Shown here in pieces: positions 34,910-42,249 of a DNA stretch of 42,249 bases. Position numbers and translations under genes: made by a program. The DNA is taken from NCBI GenBank assembly GCA_018221285.1, contig JAAOYJ010000002.1, forward strand, positions 1-42,249. Reading direction: 5' to 3'. How positions within the stretch are numbered: the stretch's first letter is position 1; every line of letters begins with the position of its first letter. The notes below the pieces were generated by a model, which searched no databases, was not told the origin of the DNA, and saw only the letters and a list, made by a program, of their open reading frames with translations. The stretch comes from Candidatus Pacearchaeota archaeon (GTDB lineage Archaea; Nanobdellota; Nanobdellia; Pacearchaeales; GW2011-AR1).

Positions 34910-36076
34910 ATGACAAAGTACGAATTACTAGCACCAGCAGGAGACTTTCCAATGCTCATCGCAGCAGTTGAGGCAGGAGCTGATGCTGTTTATTTTGGAT
35001 TGAAGGAATTTAATATGCGTGCATCTGCAAAGAATTTCACAATCAAGGATTTGGAAAAGATAAACAAAATATGTGGCAAGAAAGTTAAGAAATACCTTGT
35101 TCTCAATACAATCATTTACGACAATGAGATAAAGAAACTTGAAGATTTAATCAAAAAAGTCAAAGGAAAAGTCGACGCTATTATCTGCTGGGATTTGGCA
35201 GTAATCCAGTTATGTAAGAAACATAAGATCCCTTTTCATATGTCAACTCAAGCTTCTATCTCCAATGTAGAGTCAGCAAAGTTCTACAAAAAACTCGGAG
35301 CAGAGAGAGTGGTCTTAGCAAGAGAATTAAATCTAAAACAAATCAAGAAGATCTCAAAGATAATTTCAGTTGAATGTTTTGTTCACGGAGCAATGTGCGT
35401 CGCTGTTTCAGGAAGGTGCTTCACTTCTCAATTCCTCTTTGGTAAATCCGCTAATCGTGGAAAGTGCCTCCAACCATGTAGAAGAAGCTACATAATAAAA
35501 GATAAGCAGGAAGGATATGAGTTAGAAGTTAAACACAATAAGGTCTTGTCAGCCAAAGACCTATGCACTCTGCAGTTCATTGAAGAATTGAAAAAAGCAG
35601 GGATCACAAGTTTCAAAATCGAAGGAAGAATCAGAGACGCGAGATACGTTGATACTATCGTAAGAACATATAGAAAAGCATTGGATGAGAATCTTGATAA
35701 AAAAGAACTAAGCAAATTGATTAAAGAATTAGAAAAAGTCTACAATCGGGAATTCTCTTCAGGTTTTTATCTCGGAGCTCCAACCTCTGACGATTTCTCA
35801 ACAATTGAACACAGCGCAGCAAAAGAGAAAAAACATTTCGCAGGAAAGATAACTCATTATTATCCAAAAATTAGCGTCGCTAAAATAATGCTTTCTTCAG
35901 ATTTGAAGATTGGAGATAATATAATTGTCATCGGAAAAACAACTGGTCTGAAAAAATCAAAAGTTAAGAGAATTGAAATTGAGAAAAAATCAGTTAAGCA
36001 AGGAAAGAAAGCTGAAGAAATCGGAATAAAACTTCCAAAAGTTCGAAAAGGTGATGAAGTTTATTTACTTGTTTAA
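34910..36076 (+). CDS. Peptidase U32-family protein (RNA hydroxylation type)
   Basis: 388 residues. N-terminal YELLAPAGDFPMLIAAVEAGADAVYFGLKEFNMRA and the signature ECFVHGAMCVAVSGRCFTSQFLFGKSANRGKCLQPCRRSY carry the Cys residues that hold an Fe-S cluster in U32 proteins. Characterised relatives (TrhP, RlhA) hydroxylate tRNA or rRNA using prephenate-derived chemistry; older annotation calls them collagenases. The C-terminal barrel (KHFAGKITHYYPKISVAKIML) is present. TTTTTTAAATATAA 26 nt upstream gives a leaderless start. Confidence 0.9.
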   Translation: MTKYELLAPAGDFPMLIAAVEAGADAVYFGLKEFNMRASAKNFTIKDLEKINKICGKKVKKYLVLNTIIYDNEIKKLEDLIKKVKGKVDAIICWDLAVIQLCKKHKIPFHMSTQASISNVESAKFYKKLGAERVVLARELNLKQIKKISKIISVECFVHGAMCVAVSGRCFTSQFLFGKSANRGKCLQPCRRSYIIKDKQEGYELEVKHNKVLSAKDLCTLQFIEELKKAGITSFKIEGRIRDARYVDTIVRTYRKALDENLDKKELSKLIKELEKVYNREFSSGFYLGAPTSDDFSTIEHSAAKEKKHFAGKITHYYPKISVAKIMLSSDLKIGDNIIVIGKTTGLKKSKVKRIEIEKKSVKQGKKAEEIGIKLPKVRKGDEVYLLV

Positions 36077-37156
36077 ATTATACAACCCTTTAACTTCATT
36101 TTCTGAAAGTGATCTGTTGAAAATCATTACTTCGTCGATTGAACCTAAATAGTCATAATATCCTCCCTGAGTGGCTCCCCATGAAACGCTCCCCGAATTA
36201 CTTATGTCATTTGGATAACTTGAAAGATCTCCTGTAGTGCTCCCCTCTATTCCGTCAACATAGGCTCTGAGAATATCATTTGTAAGATTAAAGACAACCA
36301 CAACATAATGCCAGTTCTGGTCGAAAGGAGTTAAATCAGACCATTCTTTATTAAGATAAACGCCAGATTTCCCTATTTTTGCTTCAAGCCTATTTGCAGA
36401 CCCATCTGACCCGATACTAAAATAATTAAATAAAGATTGGACTTTAGCAAACATTAGACCATTGTTTTGAATAGATGCACCTGATTTCATCCAGAATGCA
36501 ATAGAAAAATCTCCGTCGCCAAGATTATCAAGAGGAGCATCATTTCCACAATCAACTCTATTATCTACCCCATCAAATTCAATGCTATCACTCCCAACTT
36601 TGCCTTCCAGATAAATCGGAAGAGTAGTCCCTTCAAGAACCCCATTATTCCCTTCAACTTCATCCTTAGTATTTCCATCAAACTTCCACCATGAAACTAA
36701 ACCAGGAATATTCTTAACAATATTTTTATCAGAAAACTCTAACTTATCAACAGGCCTTCCTCCTGCAATCTCTCCTTTCTTAAACTCAAAAATCGGAGCC
36801 ACTTCAACACTCTTAACCAATCCAGAATAACTAATGGTGAAAGTATCCTCTCCCAATTCCACTAAACTTGAATTAACTATAAAAATCTCAGAGTCCACAC
36901 CATTACTTACAATAAACTTAATCCCTGTCAAATTCCCCTCGCCAGCAATTCTTTTAACCTTAACCTTAACACTTCCTGTTTCAACCATAACCTTCTGGAC
37001 TTCCATATCAATAGTTGTGCTCTCAATAGAAATATCTTCAGCCTGATTTTCAATAATATCATTTATTGCATACCAAATAACTCCTGCCATAATAATGCCA
37101 ATACCAATTATGATAACCACTGTTATTATTGCAGACATCCCTTTTTTATTTTCCAT
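36065..37156 (-). CDS. Pilin-like secreted protein with LamG/concanavalin domain
   Basis: 363 residues. The N-terminal MENKKGMSAIITVVIIIGIGIIM is a class III signal with likely cleavage after KKG and the hydrophobic pilin helix. A beta-rich spacer (about 35-150) precedes a laminin-G-like domain: GLVSWWKFDGNTKDEVEGNNG, SIEFDGVDNRVDCG, FSIAFWMKS, SIDEVMIFNRSLSENEVKGLY. Such domains bind sugars or proteins, so this may be an adhesive tip subunit. It overlaps the convergent U32 gene end by 12 nt. Last of four pilin-like genes in a row. Confidence 0.8.
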   Translation of the reverse strand: MENKKGMSAIITVVIIIGIGIIMAGVIWYAINDIIENQAEDISIESTTIDMEVQKVMVETGSVKVKVKRIAGEGNLTGIKFIVSNGVDSEIFIVNSSLVELGEDTFTISYSGLVKSVEVAPIFEFKKGEIAGGRPVDKLEFSDKNIVKNIPGLVSWWKFDGNTKDEVEGNNGVLEGTTLPIYLEGKVGSDSIEFDGVDNRVDCGNDAPLDNLGDGDFSIAFWMKSGASIQNNGLMFAKVQSLFNYFSIGSDGSANRLEAKIGKSGVYLNKEWSDLTPFDQNWHYVVVVFNLTNDILRAYVDGIEGSTTGDLSSYPNDISNSGSVSWGATQGGYYDYLGSIDEVMIFNRSLSENEVKGLYNLNK

Positions 37157-37189
37157 TCTAATTAAACTAAGGAATAATTATTTATAAAT

Positions 37190-37639
37190 TCATCCGAATT
37201 CATAAGTTTTTGTCTGCGAACAAATCTTCTCGTTTGAAGCTTCATCCTCGAAATAAGCATTCACTTCAACAACAGTTGCATTTGCTATTCCTGAATCAAC
37301 ATCTGTTTCAGTAACTGTCTGCAAAGGTTCTATATTCCCTAAAACCCCCCACGGATCACTAGCCGCATCACTATTATTCTTGAATACAAGTTTCACTCCT
37401 GCTATCTCATCTCCCCCACTCTTTCTATTTAATGTTACAGAACACAAAGCAGGATTACTACAATCCACAGACGTCGCTCTCACATTAACATCTAAACATT
37501 TTTCAGAAAAAGCAATATTATCTGTTTGTTCTTCAAGAACATCACTGAGCACATACCAAACCACTCCCATAGCCACTAAAGCGATTCCGATTATAATCAC
37601 TACAGTTATGATTCCTGATAATCCTTTCTTATTTATCAT
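37190..37639 (-). CDS. Pilin-like protein, 149 aa
   Basis: N-terminal MINKKGLSGIITVVIIIGIAL and the helix to about residue 32 match the neighbours; cleavage after KKG expected. The C-terminal part is beta-rich with Cys in EKCLDV, DCSNPALCSV and KICSQ, probably forming disulfides outside. Likely a type IV pilus or archaellum-like subunit; no assembly ATPase or PilC-like gene lies in the window. Confidence 0.75.
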   Translation of the reverse strand: MINKKGLSGIITVVIIIGIALVAMGVVWYVLSDVLEEQTDNIAFSEKCLDVNVRATSVDCSNPALCSVTLNRKSGGDEIAGVKLVFKNNSDAASDPWGVLGNIEPLQTVTETDVDSGIANATVVEVNAYFEDEASNEKICSQTKTYEFG

Positions 37640-37681
37640 TTTTTCAATTAAATATTATATAAAATTCTAAAACCAAAAAAT

Positions 37682-37942
37682 TTAAGATGTTACAGGTCCT
37701 GTACAACATTTTTCTCCCCCAGTATATTTTATAGTTTGGTTACAAGTGTCTGTAGTGTTCATCTTGAAGCTCCCAGTCTCGTTACAAGATTTGTATACGT
37801 TTGCAGACCCATTCTCTACATTTGCAGCTTGTTCTTGAGTAACAGTATTAATCACATACCAAACAATTCCAACTGCAGCTAACGCAATCCCGATTATAAT
37901 CACTGCTGTAATAATCCCTGACATTCCTTTTTTATTTATCAT
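37682..37942 (-). CDS. Pilin-like protein, 86 aa
   Basis: MINKKGMSGIITAVIIIGIALAA signal/helix followed by a short outside domain with Cys in YKSCNETG, DTCNQTIKY and GEKCCTGPVTS. Paralogue of the next gene (38004): both have the SCxxxG...TCxxTIKYxGGxKCC pattern. N-x-T/S sites suggest glycosylation. Probably a major or minor pilin of a small surface filament. Confidence 0.78.
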   Translation of the reverse strand: MINKKGMSGIITAVIIIGIALAAVGIVWYVINTVTQEQAANVENGSANVYKSCNETGSFKMNTTDTCNQTIKYTGGEKCCTGPVTS

Positions 37943-38003
37943 TTTTACGACCTCCTTTCAATCTAATGGTTTAAAAATAAAAACCAAAAAATAAAAATTA
38001 AAC

Positions 38004-38270
38004 TTAAGCGGTTGGAGTGGTTGTACAACATTTGAATCCCCCAACATACTTTATTGTTTCACTACAAGTTGTTAATGTTTCATTCATTCTTTCATATCCA
38101 GCATCTACACAAGATTTGAACACTAGCTCAGAAGCATTTTGCACATCTTCACTTTGTTGTTCAACAACATTGTTAATCACATACCAAACAATCCCCACCA
38201 CTGCCAAAGCAATACCAATTATGATGATAGTGGTAACAATATCTGACATTCCTCTTTTGTTTATTTTCAT
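38004..38270 (-). CDS. Pilin-like protein, 88 aa
   Basis: MKINKRGMSDIVTTIIIIGIAL signal/helix (cleavage after KRG expected), then KSCVDAGYERMNETLTTCSETIKYVGGFKCC, matching its neighbour at 37682. GAGGT near 38275 precedes the start at about 5-nt spacing. First gene of the pilin set; the four genes are 33-61 nt apart. Confidence 0.78.
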   Translation of the reverse strand: MKINKRGMSDIVTTIIIIGIALAVVGIVWYVINNVVEQQSEDVQNASELVFKSCVDAGYERMNETLTTCSETIKYVGGFKCCTTTPTA

Positions 38271-38345: not shown

Positions 38346-39545
38346 TCATTTAAATGAATCCAGTAATCTAAAAAATTCTTTTCTGTCTAATATTCTGTCG
38401 ACTTCTCCAGTTCCCATATGCTCTGTAAATTTAAGAAATACTTCTGGTTTGTATTTTTTCTTTAAAGCAGCGACGGTAATCAACTTATCATCATCCCATC
38501 CAGAATATTTTCCAGATTCAATTCCTGCTTTAATCTTTCTCTTTGACAATTCAACATCTTTGAATTTATACCTCCCTATAAATCCTGCCCAAGGATATTT
38601 CTTCCCTAAAACTTTGTAAATCATCTTCTGCCTCTCTGCGTTATCCATATGATCCTTTCCTCGAACTATATGTGTCATTTTCATTTCAATATCATCGACA
38701 GTAACAGCCAAGTTCATCAAAGGCCAAACTCTGTATTTCTTCTTCTGCAAAGGATGAGGAGTTTCATTTATTCTGGCAAGAGGAAAATCTCTCATCGCAG
38801 GATTCTTATGTTTCATTCCCTTAGGTGATTTAAATCTCAAAACAGCCTCACCAACGTTGTAACCGTCCTTATCAAACATCTTTTTCCATCTTCCCAAATT
38901 TTCTTTAATATCTAATTTTCGACAAGGACAATTTTTCTTTTCTTTTACAAACACCCTAAACTCATCTCCAGAACAAGTACAAACATAAGCAGCTTTTTTC
39001 TTAATCAACTTCTCTGCATATCTGTAATAAAGATTCATTCTTTCTGATTGAATCACCGTTTCAAAAGAACCCCCAAATAACCATTTCATTTCTTGTTTAA
39101 TAAACTTGTAAGCTGTCTTGTCGATTGTGTCTGGGTTTGTGTCCTCGATTCTAATATAAAACTTCCCTCCATATCTTTTTACATAGAGATGGGAAATCGC
39201 AGCAGTTCTAACATGTCCAAGATGCAATCTTCCAGAAGGCGCAGGACTAAATCTCATAATCACCCCTGACTTTTTCACATCAGGTAATTCAGCAAGTCCA
39301 TCACGAACCTTTCTTTTACTAACAGTCTTCTCCAATTTCTCAAACTCTTTTTCCTGTTCAGTTGTGGGCATTGAATTAACTTCACTAATTACTTTAGAAA
39401 TCTTTTTGATATATTTCTTAACATCACCTTTTTTCAAACCTTCATTAAACAGCGACGATATAACTGCCCCTTGCTGAGCTTTACCACCATAAGCAATAGC
39501 ATTCTTAAGAGCATAAGCTTTGGTTTTTAGAGAAAGGTTTTTCAT
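38346..39545 (-). CDS. gltX: Glutamyl-tRNA synthetase (archaeal type), short C-terminus
   Basis: 399 residues against about 550 for archaeal GluRS. An N-terminal helical domain (to about 95) precedes the class I site: MRFSPAPSGRLHLGHVRTAA (HLGH), IRIEDTNPDT, zinc-like CTCSGDEF/CPCRK, HIVRGKDHMDN, and the KMSKS equivalent ELSKRKIK. It ends soon after SGWDDDKLITVAALKKKY, so the beta-barrel anticodon domain is missing. It charges tRNA-Glu (and possibly Gln, as in archaea). Its ATG overlaps the toxin stop by 4 nt. Confidence 0.85.
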   Translation of the reverse strand: MKNLSLKTKAYALKNAIAYGGKAQQGAVISSLFNEGLKKGDVKKYIKKISKVISEVNSMPTTEQEKEFEKLEKTVSKRKVRDGLAELPDVKKSGVIMRFSPAPSGRLHLGHVRTAAISHLYVKRYGGKFYIRIEDTNPDTIDKTAYKFIKQEMKWLFGGSFETVIQSERMNLYYRYAEKLIKKKAAYVCTCSGDEFRVFVKEKKNCPCRKLDIKENLGRWKKMFDKDGYNVGEAVLRFKSPKGMKHKNPAMRDFPLARINETPHPLQKKKYRVWPLMNLAVTVDDIEMKMTHIVRGKDHMDNAERQKMIYKVLGKKYPWAGFIGRYKFKDVELSKRKIKAGIESGKYSGWDDDKLITVAALKKKYKPEVFLKFTEHMGTGEVDRILDRKEFFRLLDSFK

Positions 39546-39793
39546 TTTATTTTATAGATATTTTTTCTGTGTCCTAATCTGAGTATCTTTATCTTGTTTT
39601 CCTCCACTTCAAATAGGATTCTGTAATTTCCTACCCTTAATTTATAGTCTGTAGTGTTTTTTAATCTTCTGACATTTCTAGAGAAAGGATTAACCGAAAG
39701 TAATCTGATTTTTTTAACAATCCTTTTTGCAAGTAAAATATCAAGTTTTTTAATTTGTTCACGTGCTTTTTTATCCCACGTTATGTTGAACAT
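39542..39793 (-). CDS. RelE/ParE-family toxin (intact locus)
   Basis: 83 residues: FNITWDKKAREQIKKLDILLAKRI, RRLKNTTDYKLRVGNYRILFEVE, ILRLGHRKNIYKIK. A clear paralogue of the 233-484 toxin. Likely cleaves mRNA on the ribosome. The start shares one base with the antitoxin stop (TAATG) and the stop overlaps the gltX start (ATGA), so toxin and synthetase are translated as one unit. Confidence 0.88.
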   Translation of the reverse strand: MFNITWDKKAREQIKKLDILLAKRIVKKIRLLSVNPFSRNVRRLKNTTDYKLRVGNYRILFEVEENKIKILRLGHRKNIYKIK

Positions 39794-40011
39794 TATAGCC
39801 CCAACTCTTTTTCTACTTCTTTATGAGTCAAGAATTCTCCAGCATCCATCCTTTTTCTAGCTTCTTCTAGCTCTTTCTTGGTTTTATCATTCAACTCTAA
39901 ATTATCTTCAATCATATCTTCAATCACTTCATTATATGTTTCTCTCTGAAAAACTTTCATCTGATTAAGTGCTATTTTCACAGAATCTGAAATTTGTATT
40001 GTTGTAGCCAT
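39793..40011 (-). CDS. Antitoxin of the RelE-type pair
   Basis: 72 residues. A short beta-strand start ATTIQISDSVKIALNQMK (ribbon-helix-helix-like) is followed by a long acidic helix RETYNEVIEDMIEDNLELN and a C-terminal EFLTHKEVEKELGL that should wrap the toxin. TTATATACTAT about 30 nt upstream is the promoter. Intact homologue of the truncated antitoxin at 66-236, and possibly able to neutralise both toxins. Confidence 0.85.
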   Translation of the reverse strand: MATTIQISDSVKIALNQMKVFQRETYNEVIEDMIEDNLELNDKTKKELEEARKRMDAGEFLTHKEVEKELGL

Positions 40012-40077: not shown

Positions 40078-40260
40078 TCAAAAAACAATATAATCTTCAC
40101 CTATCTTAGGTCCATCATACTTTCCATGAAATCCTTGGTCCACAGGATATCTTAAAGATTCTCCATTAGAACTTCTTGGAGACATATTTAATACGTAATC
40201 AGGACTCATGCTACTTTGGACAGGAGAGTATTTTATTAGGGATGTGTATGGAGAGTTCAT
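40078..40260 (-). CDS. Hypothetical protein, 60 aa, end of the peptide cluster
   Basis: Not recognised. Rich in Ser, Pro, Tyr and Gly (YSPVQSSMSPDYVLNMSPRSS, FHGKYDGPKIGEDYIVF), no Cys, no membrane helix. It starts 30 nt after the radical SAM gene, in the same direction. AAAATAAA precedes its ATG just as it precedes several peptide ORFs, suggesting shared origin. Could be another substrate, a recognition protein, or unrelated. Confidence 0.5.
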   Translation of the reverse strand: MNSPYTSLIKYSPVQSSMSPDYVLNMSPRSSNGESLRYPVDQGFHGKYDGPKIGEDYIVF

Positions 40261-40290: not shown

Positions 40291-41397
40291 TTAACTAAGA
40301 TACCCAACATAGAAATCAAAAGCAGGGCTTTCTATTAACCTCTTAAAAAAATCCTCCCGATTTTTGTTAATCTCTAAAACATCTCCAAAAATAAATTTAT
40401 CAGGGATCTTTCCAAGTGCCTGGACAAGACCAGTAAAAATCTTCCCATCACAATTAACAATAAATTCTCTACACCCATTTATTGCAGTAGGATACCAAAA
40501 GAAGTGGAATTCATTATTGCCTGACTCTTCACCGAATTCAAAAAAGTCTTCTGTTGGTTTTAGTTTGTTATAAAGTTCAGAGTAATTTTCTCTTAGATAA
40601 TTGATGATGTCGTCTTCATAGATATTAAAAGAAACATAAGAATCATTTAACCTTGAGAAAAATTCAAGAGTTTCTTTAATAAACCCAATTGTTTCTTCAT
40701 AAGATGGTTTCAATGATTTGTCAGGTCTTCCGGCATAAGTGCTAACAGGAGTTATAAAAAAATTCTTTAGCCCAAAATCCTCATTAAGATATTTTATCAT
40801 TGGTAAAATTTCCTCTTTATTTATCGTAGTCAGAGTAGCTAAAATACTCAACTTCCCAATATTTCCTTTGGCCAATCCACCATCTAATAATCTTTTAATT
40901 TGTTCAATAGTTATATCAAAAGCACCAGGAAAATTTCTTTGTTCATCATGTGTCTCCTTTAGTCCATCAACAGAGATATCAAAATGATCTATTCTAAGGC
41001 TACAGATTTCATCATAATACTTTTTGATTGCAGGACCGTCGGCGATCATCCCAACCTTTATATCTGGAAAATTTTTATTCAAATATCTAATAATCTCAAT
41101 AATAGTATTATTTAACCCTCTTCCTCCAAAGATAAAATGCCTAAATTCTAATTTTTCATACATATTATTAATTATGCCTTTCCAAGTTTCTAGGCCCAAG
41201 GTTTTATTATGGCAATGATAGTCTTCAGGATAAATGCAATGTTTACACTTATTTGGGCAATGAGGGTTAACCAAAATCTCTGCAAACGGCGGAAGATTCT
41301 TTCTATAGATCTCCTGCAATTTTTCTTTTAGCTCTTGCTGACTAAGTCCCTTTTCATTTACAAGATTCATAAATTCTTTAGCACAATTATTTTCCAT
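40291..41397 (-). CDS. Radical SAM enzyme, candidate peptide maturase
   Basis: 368 residues. The [4Fe-4S]-SAM motif is C-P-N-K-C-K-H-C (CxxxCxxC, about 48-55) with the GGE-type turn seen as FGGRG and a later SVDG. A partial SPASM/Twitch-like end is seen: INGCREFIVNCDGKIFTG and FIFGDVLEINKN, with two Cys rather than the full set, so an auxiliary cluster is doubtful. The N-terminal 35 residues (EFMNLVNEKGLSQQELKEKL) are helical. It follows six tiny peptide ORFs by 30 nt. Role inferred: radical modification of those peptides. Confidence 0.8.
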   Translation of the reverse strand: MENNCAKEFMNLVNEKGLSQQELKEKLQEIYRKNLPPFAEILVNPHCPNKCKHCIYPEDYHCHNKTLGLETWKGIINNMYEKLEFRHFIFGGRGLNNTIIEIIRYLNKNFPDIKVGMIADGPAIKKYYDEICSLRIDHFDISVDGLKETHDEQRNFPGAFDITIEQIKRLLDGGLAKGNIGKLSILATLTTINKEEILPMIKYLNEDFGLKNFFITPVSTYAGRPDKSLKPSYEETIGFIKETLEFFSRLNDSYVSFNIYEDDIINYLRENYSELYNKLKPTEDFFEFGEESGNNEFHFFWYPTAINGCREFIVNCDGKIFTGLVQALGKIPDKFIFGDVLEINKNREDFFKRLIESPAFDFYVGYLS

Positions 41398-41427: not shown

Positions 41428-41469
41428 CTATTTCCCTTGGTTTGCACTTCCCGTATTCGCATAACCCAT
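41428..41469 (-). CDS. Minimal peptide ORF f, 13 aa
   Basis: MGYANTGSANQGK then TAG. Last unit of the array, 30 nt before the radical SAM start. Its start is 2 nt after the stop of ORF e. Nearly identical to ORF d apart from the A-N-Q positions. In all units Asn, Ser/Thr, Gly, Ser and the Gly-Lys end are fixed. Confidence 0.65.
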   Translation of the reverse strand: MGYANTGSANQGK

Positions 41470-41471
41470 TC

Positions 41472-41510
41472 TTATTTTCCCCGATTCGCACTCCCACTAT
41501 TTAGATTCAT
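41472..41510 (-). CDS. Minimal peptide ORF e, 12 aa
   Basis: MNLNSGSANRGK then TAA. One residue shorter than the other units, at the aromatic/Ser position, and lacks the aromatic residue. It is separated from ORF d by 20 nt ending AAAAAAATAAA, the only long spacer in the array. Confidence 0.65.
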   Translation of the reverse strand: MNLNSGSANRGK

Positions 41511-41530
41511 TTTATTTTTTTGAGGATCTT

Positions 41531-41572
41531 TTATTTTCCTTTTCCAGTACTTCCAGTATTCGCGTAACCCAT
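41531..41572 (-). CDS. Minimal peptide ORF d, 13 aa
   Basis: MGYANTGSTGKGK then TAA. Starts one base after the stop of ORF c. A longer reading exists: an out-of-frame ATG inside ORF c (near 41617) runs in this frame through a hydrophobic VIVVVQGRENK stretch into the unit. Confidence 0.65.
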   Translation of the reverse strand: MGYANTGSTGKGK

Positions 41573-41573
41573 T

Positions 41574-41696
41574 TTATTTTCCCTTCCCTGCACTACCACT
41601 ATTACTAACGGCCTCATTAATCTTCTTCAGTTTCTTGCTTTGTTTTAGGTAGTTTTGTTTTCCTCTGTTCACACTTCCGCTATTTGACCAACCCAT
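41574..41696 (-). CDS. Double-unit peptide ORF c, 40 aa
   Basis: Two units in one ORF: MGWSNSGSVNRGK, a basic linker QNYLKQSKKLKKIN, then EAVSNSGSAGKGK and TAA. The linker looks like a former stop-spacer turned into coding sequence, or a helix that presents two cores. Starts one base after ORF b. Confidence 0.65.
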   Translation of the reverse strand: MGWSNSGSVNRGKQNYLKQSKKLKKINEAVSNSGSAGKGK

Positions 41697-41697
41697 C

Positions 41698-41739
41698 TTA
41701 CTTCCCTCGTCCTGAGCTACCACTATTAGACCAGGCCAT
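41698..41739 (-). CDS. Minimal peptide ORF b, 13 aa
   Basis: MAWSNSGSSGRGK then TAA. Starts one base after ORF a. As with ORF d, an upstream out-of-frame ATG inside ORF a (near 41778) can be read as a hydrophobic IVVVAQGKENK extension that enters this unit in frame. Confidence 0.65.
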   Translation of the reverse strand: MAWSNSGSSGRGK

Positions 41740-41740
41740 T

Positions 41741-41860
41741 TTATTTTCCTTTCCCTGAGCTACCACTACTATAGACATTTTCATTCATTGGCTTGGAAAT
41801 TTTTTGTTCCTTCTGAATTTCCTTTCCCTTGTCTGCACTTCCACTATTACTTATTGTCAT
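41741..41860 (-). CDS. Double-unit peptide ORF a, 39 aa
   Basis: First ORF of the array: MTISNSGSADKGK, a linker EIQKEQKISKPMN, then ENVYSSGSSGKGK and TAA. An internal ATG could also start the second unit alone (MNENVYSSGSSGKGK). GGGGAAAGATT just upstream may serve as ribosome site or leader. Confidence 0.65.
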   Translation of the reverse strand: MTISNSGSADKGKEIQKEQKISKPMNENVYSSGSSGKGK

Positions 41861-41877
41861 TTTAATCTTTCCCCAAA

Positions 41878-41960
41878 TTTAGTTAATGTTTAATAGCAAT
41901 TAGTATAATTAAAACATTTTATTGATTTTTTTAATAATAGGGGAAAAGTATTTAAATAAA
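41878..41960. promoter_or_regulatory. Divergent promoter between peptide array and HTH gene
   Basis: On the minus strand CTATTAAACATTAAC (41881-41895) lies about 26-30 nt before the first peptide ATG. On the plus strand GGGGAAAAGTATTTAAATAA (41940-41959) lies about 26 nt before the HTH gene ATG at 41978. The arrangement suggests local control of the cluster by the HTH protein. Confidence 0.6.
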
Positions 41961-41977
41961 GCAATAATTATTAAAAT

Positions 41978-42199
41978 ATGGCAATCTCATCCGTTGGCAA
42001 GCAAGAAACAATTAAATTGGACTTATATGATAAAAAAATACTTTGGGAACTTGCCCTTAATTCAAGAATTCCTAGAAAACAACTTGCTAAAAAAATTGGT
42101 ATCTCTCAAGAGAGACTTCACTATAAAATTAATCGGTTAACAAAAGATGTAATCGAACCAGCAATCATCTTAACTAAAAAGAAATCTCCATCTTTTTAA
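41978..42199 (+). CDS. AsnC/Lrp-type HTH protein, 73 aa
   Basis: KLDLYDKKILWELALNSRIPRKQLAKKIGISQERLHYKINRLTKDVI is a typical Lrp/AsnC winged-helix DNA-binding domain (about 13-60). The ligand-binding RAM domain is absent: the protein ends IILTKKKSPSF, and the stop codon lies in a hairpin. A short stand-alone regulator or a truncated Lrp. Divergent from the peptide array, so a candidate regulator of it. Confidence 0.75.
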   Translation: MAISSVGKQETIKLDLYDKKILWELALNSRIPRKQLAKKIGISQERLHYKINRLTKDVIEPAIILTKKKSPSF

Positions 42200-42206
42200 G
42201 ATGGAG
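42186..42206 (+). terminator. Perfect stem-loop spanning the HTH gene stop
   Basis: CTCCATCTT-TTT-AAGATGGAG, 9-bp perfect stem with 3-nt loop; the TAA stop lies in the loop and descending arm. Likely ends or stabilises the HTH transcript. A pyrimidine-rich stretch follows. Confidence 0.55.
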
Positions 42207-42249
42207 TAAAGTTTCTCCCCCTAATTATTTATTTCTGAAAAGATTATTA

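Follow-up and report, generated by a model that had tools for sequence, protein, structure and literature searches.

A tandem array of minimal Ser/Gly-rich peptide genes beside a radical-SAM enzyme gene in a Pacearchaeota archaeon: a candidate leaderless RiPP-like system

Several described peptide-modifying systems resemble parts of the locus reported here. Proteusin epimerases such as PoyD are reported to act independently of a leader and to hold a single cluster (PMC8326336). Biarylitides (bytA, P450) derive from minimal precursors that have hardly any leader and are present in up to six copies per strain (PMC13417212). For triceptides, the enzymes XncB, OscB and MscB, which have SPASM domains, form i to i+2 links from an aromatic residue (PMC11002830).

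The locus lies in the window, by which we mean the whole stretch of DNA analyzed, 42,249 nucleotides of a Candidatus Pacearchaeota archaeon (contig JAAOYJ010000002.1). It encodes Ser/Gly-rich peptides of 12-40 residues and a radical-SAM enzyme. A single cluster is common to this enzyme (judged by Cys content only) and the PoyD-type epimerases, but the long precursors and C-terminal RRE of the latter were not seen in the window. Minimal multi-copy precursors are found in both the biarylitides and the window; however, the former rely on P450 chemistry and five-residue precursors in bacteria, whereas the window combines a radical-SAM enzyme with peptides of 12-40 residues. As for triceptides, an aromatic residue stands two positions before N/S in five of the eight window units, but it is absent in three. 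The radical-SAM enzyme of the ACGX system (TIGR04340) is among the best NCBIfam matches of the window enzyme (E 4.6e-11), but its score is 42.5 bits where the cut-off is 400, and the window units contain no Cys. The RVXG[FWY] fingerprint of glycyl-radical loops is absent, the window units reading [N/S]-[S/T]-G-S. Finally, the enzyme has the CxxxCxxC core of SPASM-type radical-SAM peptide maturases but not their auxiliary-cluster Cys. The open literature searchable here names no such system.

The array consists of six minus-strand ORFs, each running from ATG to stop. ORF1 (41860-41741, 39 aa) holds two units, MTISNSGSADKGK and MNENVYSSGSSGKGK, joined by a linker, and ORF2 (41739-41698, 13 aa) encodes MAWSNSGSSGRGK. 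Two units are also found in ORF3 (41696-41574, 40 aa), where MGWSNSGSVNRGK is followed by the linker QNYLKQSKKLKKINEA and VSNSGSAGKGK. ORF4 (41572-41531, 13 aa), ORF5 (41510-41472, 12 aa) and ORF6 (41469-41428, 13 aa) encode MGYANTGSTGKGK, MNLNSGSANRGK and MGYANTGSANQGK, respectively, all on the minus strand. An earlier note on this DNA had described six such ORFs (39, 13, 40, 13, 12 and 13 codons) carrying eight units, and re-reading the sequence returned them at the same coordinates. The unit itself was less well described by its proposed M-G-[W/Y] opening. The eight copies stand and read [N/S]-[S/T]-G-S-x-x-[K/R/Q]-G-K, but W or Y is not a general feature, being found in five copies, with I, V or L in the others. 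No residue is more constant than the Gly of S-G. The unit pattern matched four times in the window and never in 100 shuffles.

Four of the six ORFs are bare units of 12-13 aa, with neither leader nor follower besides the core. From ORF1 to ORF6 the gaps are 1, 1, 1, 20 and 2 nt; only ORF5 is preceded by the 20-nt gap, the other downstream mini-cistrons starting 1-2 nt past the previous stop. The boundaries fall at one fixed place in the repeat: K-G-K, a stop codon, 1-2 nt and the next ATG. GG-rich stretches precede most of the ATGs, and are mostly made by the K-G-K codons of the preceding unit. The radical-SAM gene follows on the same strand, as previously noted, with its ATG (41397) 30 nt past ORF6. 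The array lies about 400 bases from the contig end.

The units had also been claimed to be under coding constraint, and counting synonymous and non-synonymous changes among them bore this out. For the 9-codon core of the eight window units, pS was 0.72 and pN 0.19 in the true frame, so that changes are biased to synonymous sites. The corresponding pS/pN values were 0.24/0.35 in frame +1, 0.37/0.30 in frame +2 and 0.18/0.38, 0.54/0.21 and 0.43/0.29 in the antisense frames. Third-position change was in excess among the cores (column permutation p = 0.0055), whose mean identity was 70% for DNA and 69% for protein. Synonymous sites are near saturation and the peptide is conserved. Such a pattern would be hard to obtain without translation and long-standing selection. 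Out-of-frame readings of 28 aa (MSIVVVAQGKENK...) were rejected, that frame being without constraint. An RNA element was likewise rejected, the array RNA being less folded than shuffles (z +2.25); the only Rfam matches were tRNAs.

The radical-SAM enzyme (40291..41397, minus strand, 368 aa) matches Pfam Radical_SAM (4.4e-13). Nothing else in Pfam rose above cut-off, and no C-terminal RRE was seen. The CxxxCxxC motif is kept at residues 47-54 (C47, C51, C54). The C-terminus is degenerate and SPASM-like, without auxiliary Cys: the auxiliary-cluster columns, with Cys in 17-25 of 26 rows of the order's radical-SAM proteins, show A, G or no residue in the window enzyme. By Cys content only, it appears to keep a single cluster. 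C309 and C316 are candidate donor Cys. Among NCBIfam models, NirJ and the ACGX-system enzyme came closest, but none exceeded the cut-off set for it, and a PDB sequence search gave no match. In the predicted model (pLDDT 84.4, pTM 0.85), the closest folds are the peptide-acting SkfB, CteB, SuiB and anSME, which counts for a peptide-modifying role; the alignment behind the model was made of SPASM-type relatives and biases this match, so that the fold class is supported but the substrate is not.

No second array of the window unit was found in the collections scanned, and the rest of a class sample of 378 genomes has none either. The unit pattern gave 11 matches in genome_contigs and one in viral_contigs, none within an array, and the two-unit tandem pattern gave none in viral contigs. 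With the window enzyme as query, no relative was detected in genome_contigs, viral_contigs or phages; one distant plasmid enzyme was matched.

Regulator and enzyme searches led to related loci in five genomes of the order (G190, G174, G173, G137 and G161). The G161 enzyme used as query gave G190 and G174, and a profile of G190, G174 and G173 gave G137. All five share one plan, an AsnC-type HTH regulator divergent from one or more short Ser/Gly-repeat peptides and a radical-SAM gene. Thus, the co-occurrence of repeat peptides with radical-SAM genes, a check proposed in the earlier note, recurs in five genomes, with different units. In each relative repeat set, synonymous change exceeds non-synonymous change.

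The repeats lie in small ORFs in G190, G174, G173 and G137. Two such ORFs precede the enzyme in G190 and one each in G174 and G173; they start M-A-x-(P)-G-x-S-G-S-x-G-G-I. The peptides of these three genomes bear a conserved C-terminal extension of about 48 aa, and the bare units of the window therefore look like a reduced form. Upstream of the G137 enzyme lies a 76-aa ORF containing KPNVSGYSAGISFGAGVIP and KPNISGHSASVGFGASVIP. Overall, the upstream ORFs of the relatives measure 60-76 aa, and no Pfam or NCBIfam model matched those tested. The enzyme N-terminus itself carries the motif, in two full copies in G190 (L110, 1087-2196), one in G174 (L111, 1474-2541) and, incompletely, as MALGLSG in G173. 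The copies in G190 and G174 could possibly be a substrate in cis, or a pseudo-substrate. The radical-SAM gene of G161 (L060/L069, 1326-2375) starts with three Ser/Gly/Ala repeats around S-[A/S]-G-A-M-A-G-S and is divergent to a full-length regulator. The motif copies or repeats on the G190, G174 and G161 enzymes thus tie the repeats to the enzyme.

The relatives and the window have in common a divergent AsnC-type HTH, short S-G repeat peptides and a cluster-poor radical-SAM enzyme, the relatives' enzymes being without the full set of SPASM Cys. They differ in unit sequence and in layout, with ORFs of 60-76 aa or enzyme-fused repeats in the relatives and bare 12-13 aa units in the window. The S-G-S-x-G part is common to the window units and those of G190, G174 and G173, whereas K-G-K is not. 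The earlier note had placed the target in N-[S/T]-G-S or in K-G-K; the shared part makes a target in [N/S]-[S/T]-G-S the more likely.

Enzymes of the relatives' type occur in few genomes (5 of the 170 sampled from the order) and were not found in viral contigs. A regulator-enzyme pair in G250 and two enzymes in G185, no peptide being seen in either genome, form one group with the five peptide-associated relatives (tree support 95/87). The two G185 enzymes (L003/L120 and L007/L121) are closely similar, have GKEP instead of GGEP and no AsnC neighbor. Membership of the window enzyme in this clade was not established (tree support 48/78; profile rank 13 of 31). Moreover, AsnC-type regulators of this order are also divergent to other kinds of radical-SAM gene where no repeat peptide was observed (L077, L081, L083, L084, L099, L102 and L108), and regulator-enzyme pairing alone is therefore not specific. 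What links window and relatives is the locus plan together with an orthologous regulator (43-47% to G161), and not a resolved tree of the enzymes.

The divergent gene had been read as an AsnC-type HTH gene. It is divergent and AsnC-type, but the 73-aa HTH ORF (41978..42199, plus strand) covers only the first part of a longer regulator that was apparently interrupted, and matches residues 1-62 of the G161 regulator at 47%. The remainder is a 253-aa ORF ending contig C30 of the same genome (L058, 12942-12181; 43% to residues 67-315). Against the 316-aa G161 regulator this ORF gave E 2e-70, the next best match outside the window genome being 2.5e-11. As judged from these matches, the window regulator is orthologous to that of G161. 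The last 80 bases or so of C30 are repeated at the starts of C22, C27, C9 and C36 (the window), and on C26; this element end occupies 1-83 and 42186-42249 in the window and 12935-13015 in C30 (L058). A perfect 9-bp hairpin (42186..42206, no strand, z -2.1) spans the HTH stop codon and probably marks the left boundary of the element that interrupts the gene. The simplest reading would be one regulator gene cut between C36 and C30 by a repeated mobile element, at which the assembly was broken too. The divergent promoter region (41861..41977, no strand) contains a 10-bp inverted repeat (41929-41938 / 41967-41976) that could be an operator.

On the other side of the enzyme gene lies a 60-aa ORF (40078-40260, minus strand), which had been counted as a component of the system. 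This did not hold, as its kin stand without the enzyme in G051 and, as a broken remnant, in G125; we therefore consider it chromosomal backbone. The same-genus genome G125 is syntenic with the window, with small differences, over a U32-type peptidase, a pilin-like gene, a glutamyl-tRNA synthetase and a RelE/RelB-like pair. Synteny breaks inside the 60-aa gene, past which G125 has unrelated genes and neither enzyme nor array. The gene order of C30 also agrees with G125. At 36065-38270, four genes in a row have pilin-like N-termini (KKGMSGIITxVIIIGIAL), a RelE/RelB-like toxin-antitoxin pair is found at 39542-40011, both on the minus strand, and a second RelE-like gene lies at the other end of the contig (233-484, plus strand).

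Peptides that are real but unmodified (signals, cationic or structural peptides), with an enzyme of another pathway merely sharing the operon, appear unlikely to us. Small genes such as the 60-aa one can adjoin enzymes by chance, but five further genomes show the same pairing with units of another sequence, and three of these carry motif copies or repeats on the enzyme N-terminus. That the short ORFs are regulatory uORFs tuning translation of the enzyme is very improbable: their position directly upstream of the enzyme and the GG-rich stretches that K-G-K codons yield before most ATGs would suit such a role, but eight copies are conserved as peptide, the array RNA folds less than shuffled sequences do (z +2.25), and the ORFs at the equivalent place in the relatives reach 60-76 aa. 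We give hardly any credit to a repeat protein in decay or to a misassembly near the contig end. The breaks recur at the same point of the unit with the constraint kept, synteny with a same-genus genome extends as far as the 60-aa gene, and the remainder of the regulator sits on a further contig of this genome; these points stand against the two units with linkers in each of ORF1 and ORF3 and the contig end about 400 bases away.

The remaining alternative concerns the chemistry of a modifying enzyme. Triceptide-like rings from an aromatic residue to i+2, or a reaction at the Gly C-alpha of the kind used in glycyl-radical activation, are conceivable but doubtful. W-S-N, Y-A-N or Y-S-S in five of the eight units would fit i to i+2 links (PMC11002830), but three units have no aromatic residue, and triceptide enzymes have SPASM domains, the Cys of which the window enzyme has lost. 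The constancy of the Gly of S-G would suit Gly chemistry, as would the N-V-S-G-Y unit of G137, which resembles RVXG[FWY]; however, the window unit has neither R-V nor an aromatic residue after Gly. Since the enzyme keeps only one cluster, by Cys content, epimerization is the first candidate chemistry.

Altogether, the locus is rather likely to be a RiPP-like peptide-modification module whose enzyme acts on the peptides. It shows a precursor under coding constraint and an enzyme gene beside it, in a pairing that recurs. Several findings count against this reading: the uncertain place of the window enzyme relative to the relatives' clade, the AsnC-type regulators beside peptide-less radical-SAM genes, and the conserved single C-terminal Cys of the relatives, the position of which is not matched in the window enzyme. 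In addition, no exporter or protease gene was found on the visible side of the locus, and no exporter was noted directly around the relatives' loci. In the modification module as we picture it, the AsnC-type regulator would be divergent to an operon of tiny peptide cistrons followed by the enzyme gene, the closely spaced mini-cistrons probably being translationally coupled. We infer from sequence that the peptides are substrates needing no leader. The enzyme most likely modifies the S-G-S core, which it would recognize directly, abstracting a hydrogen from a residue in [N/S]-[S/T]-G-S. The product would be a mixed set of modified peptides of 12-40 residues.

The five similar loci suggest a family of modified peptides in archaea that is as yet undescribed. 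Whether this is a fast-diverging family whose substrate comes as free leaderless mini-peptides, follower-bearing peptides or enzyme-fused repeats, recognized by the core alone, is in our judgment an even call. The three arrangements, in which units are free, joined to a follower or fused to the enzyme, provide a natural series on how such enzymes find their substrates. If the proposed modification is true, the enzyme would serve as a compact radical-SAM catalyst that works on 13-residue peptides without a leader and is convenient to assay. An archaeon with a small genome, belonging to a group believed to depend on hosts, would then keep a mixture of modified peptides, perhaps for its dealings with its host or with rivals.
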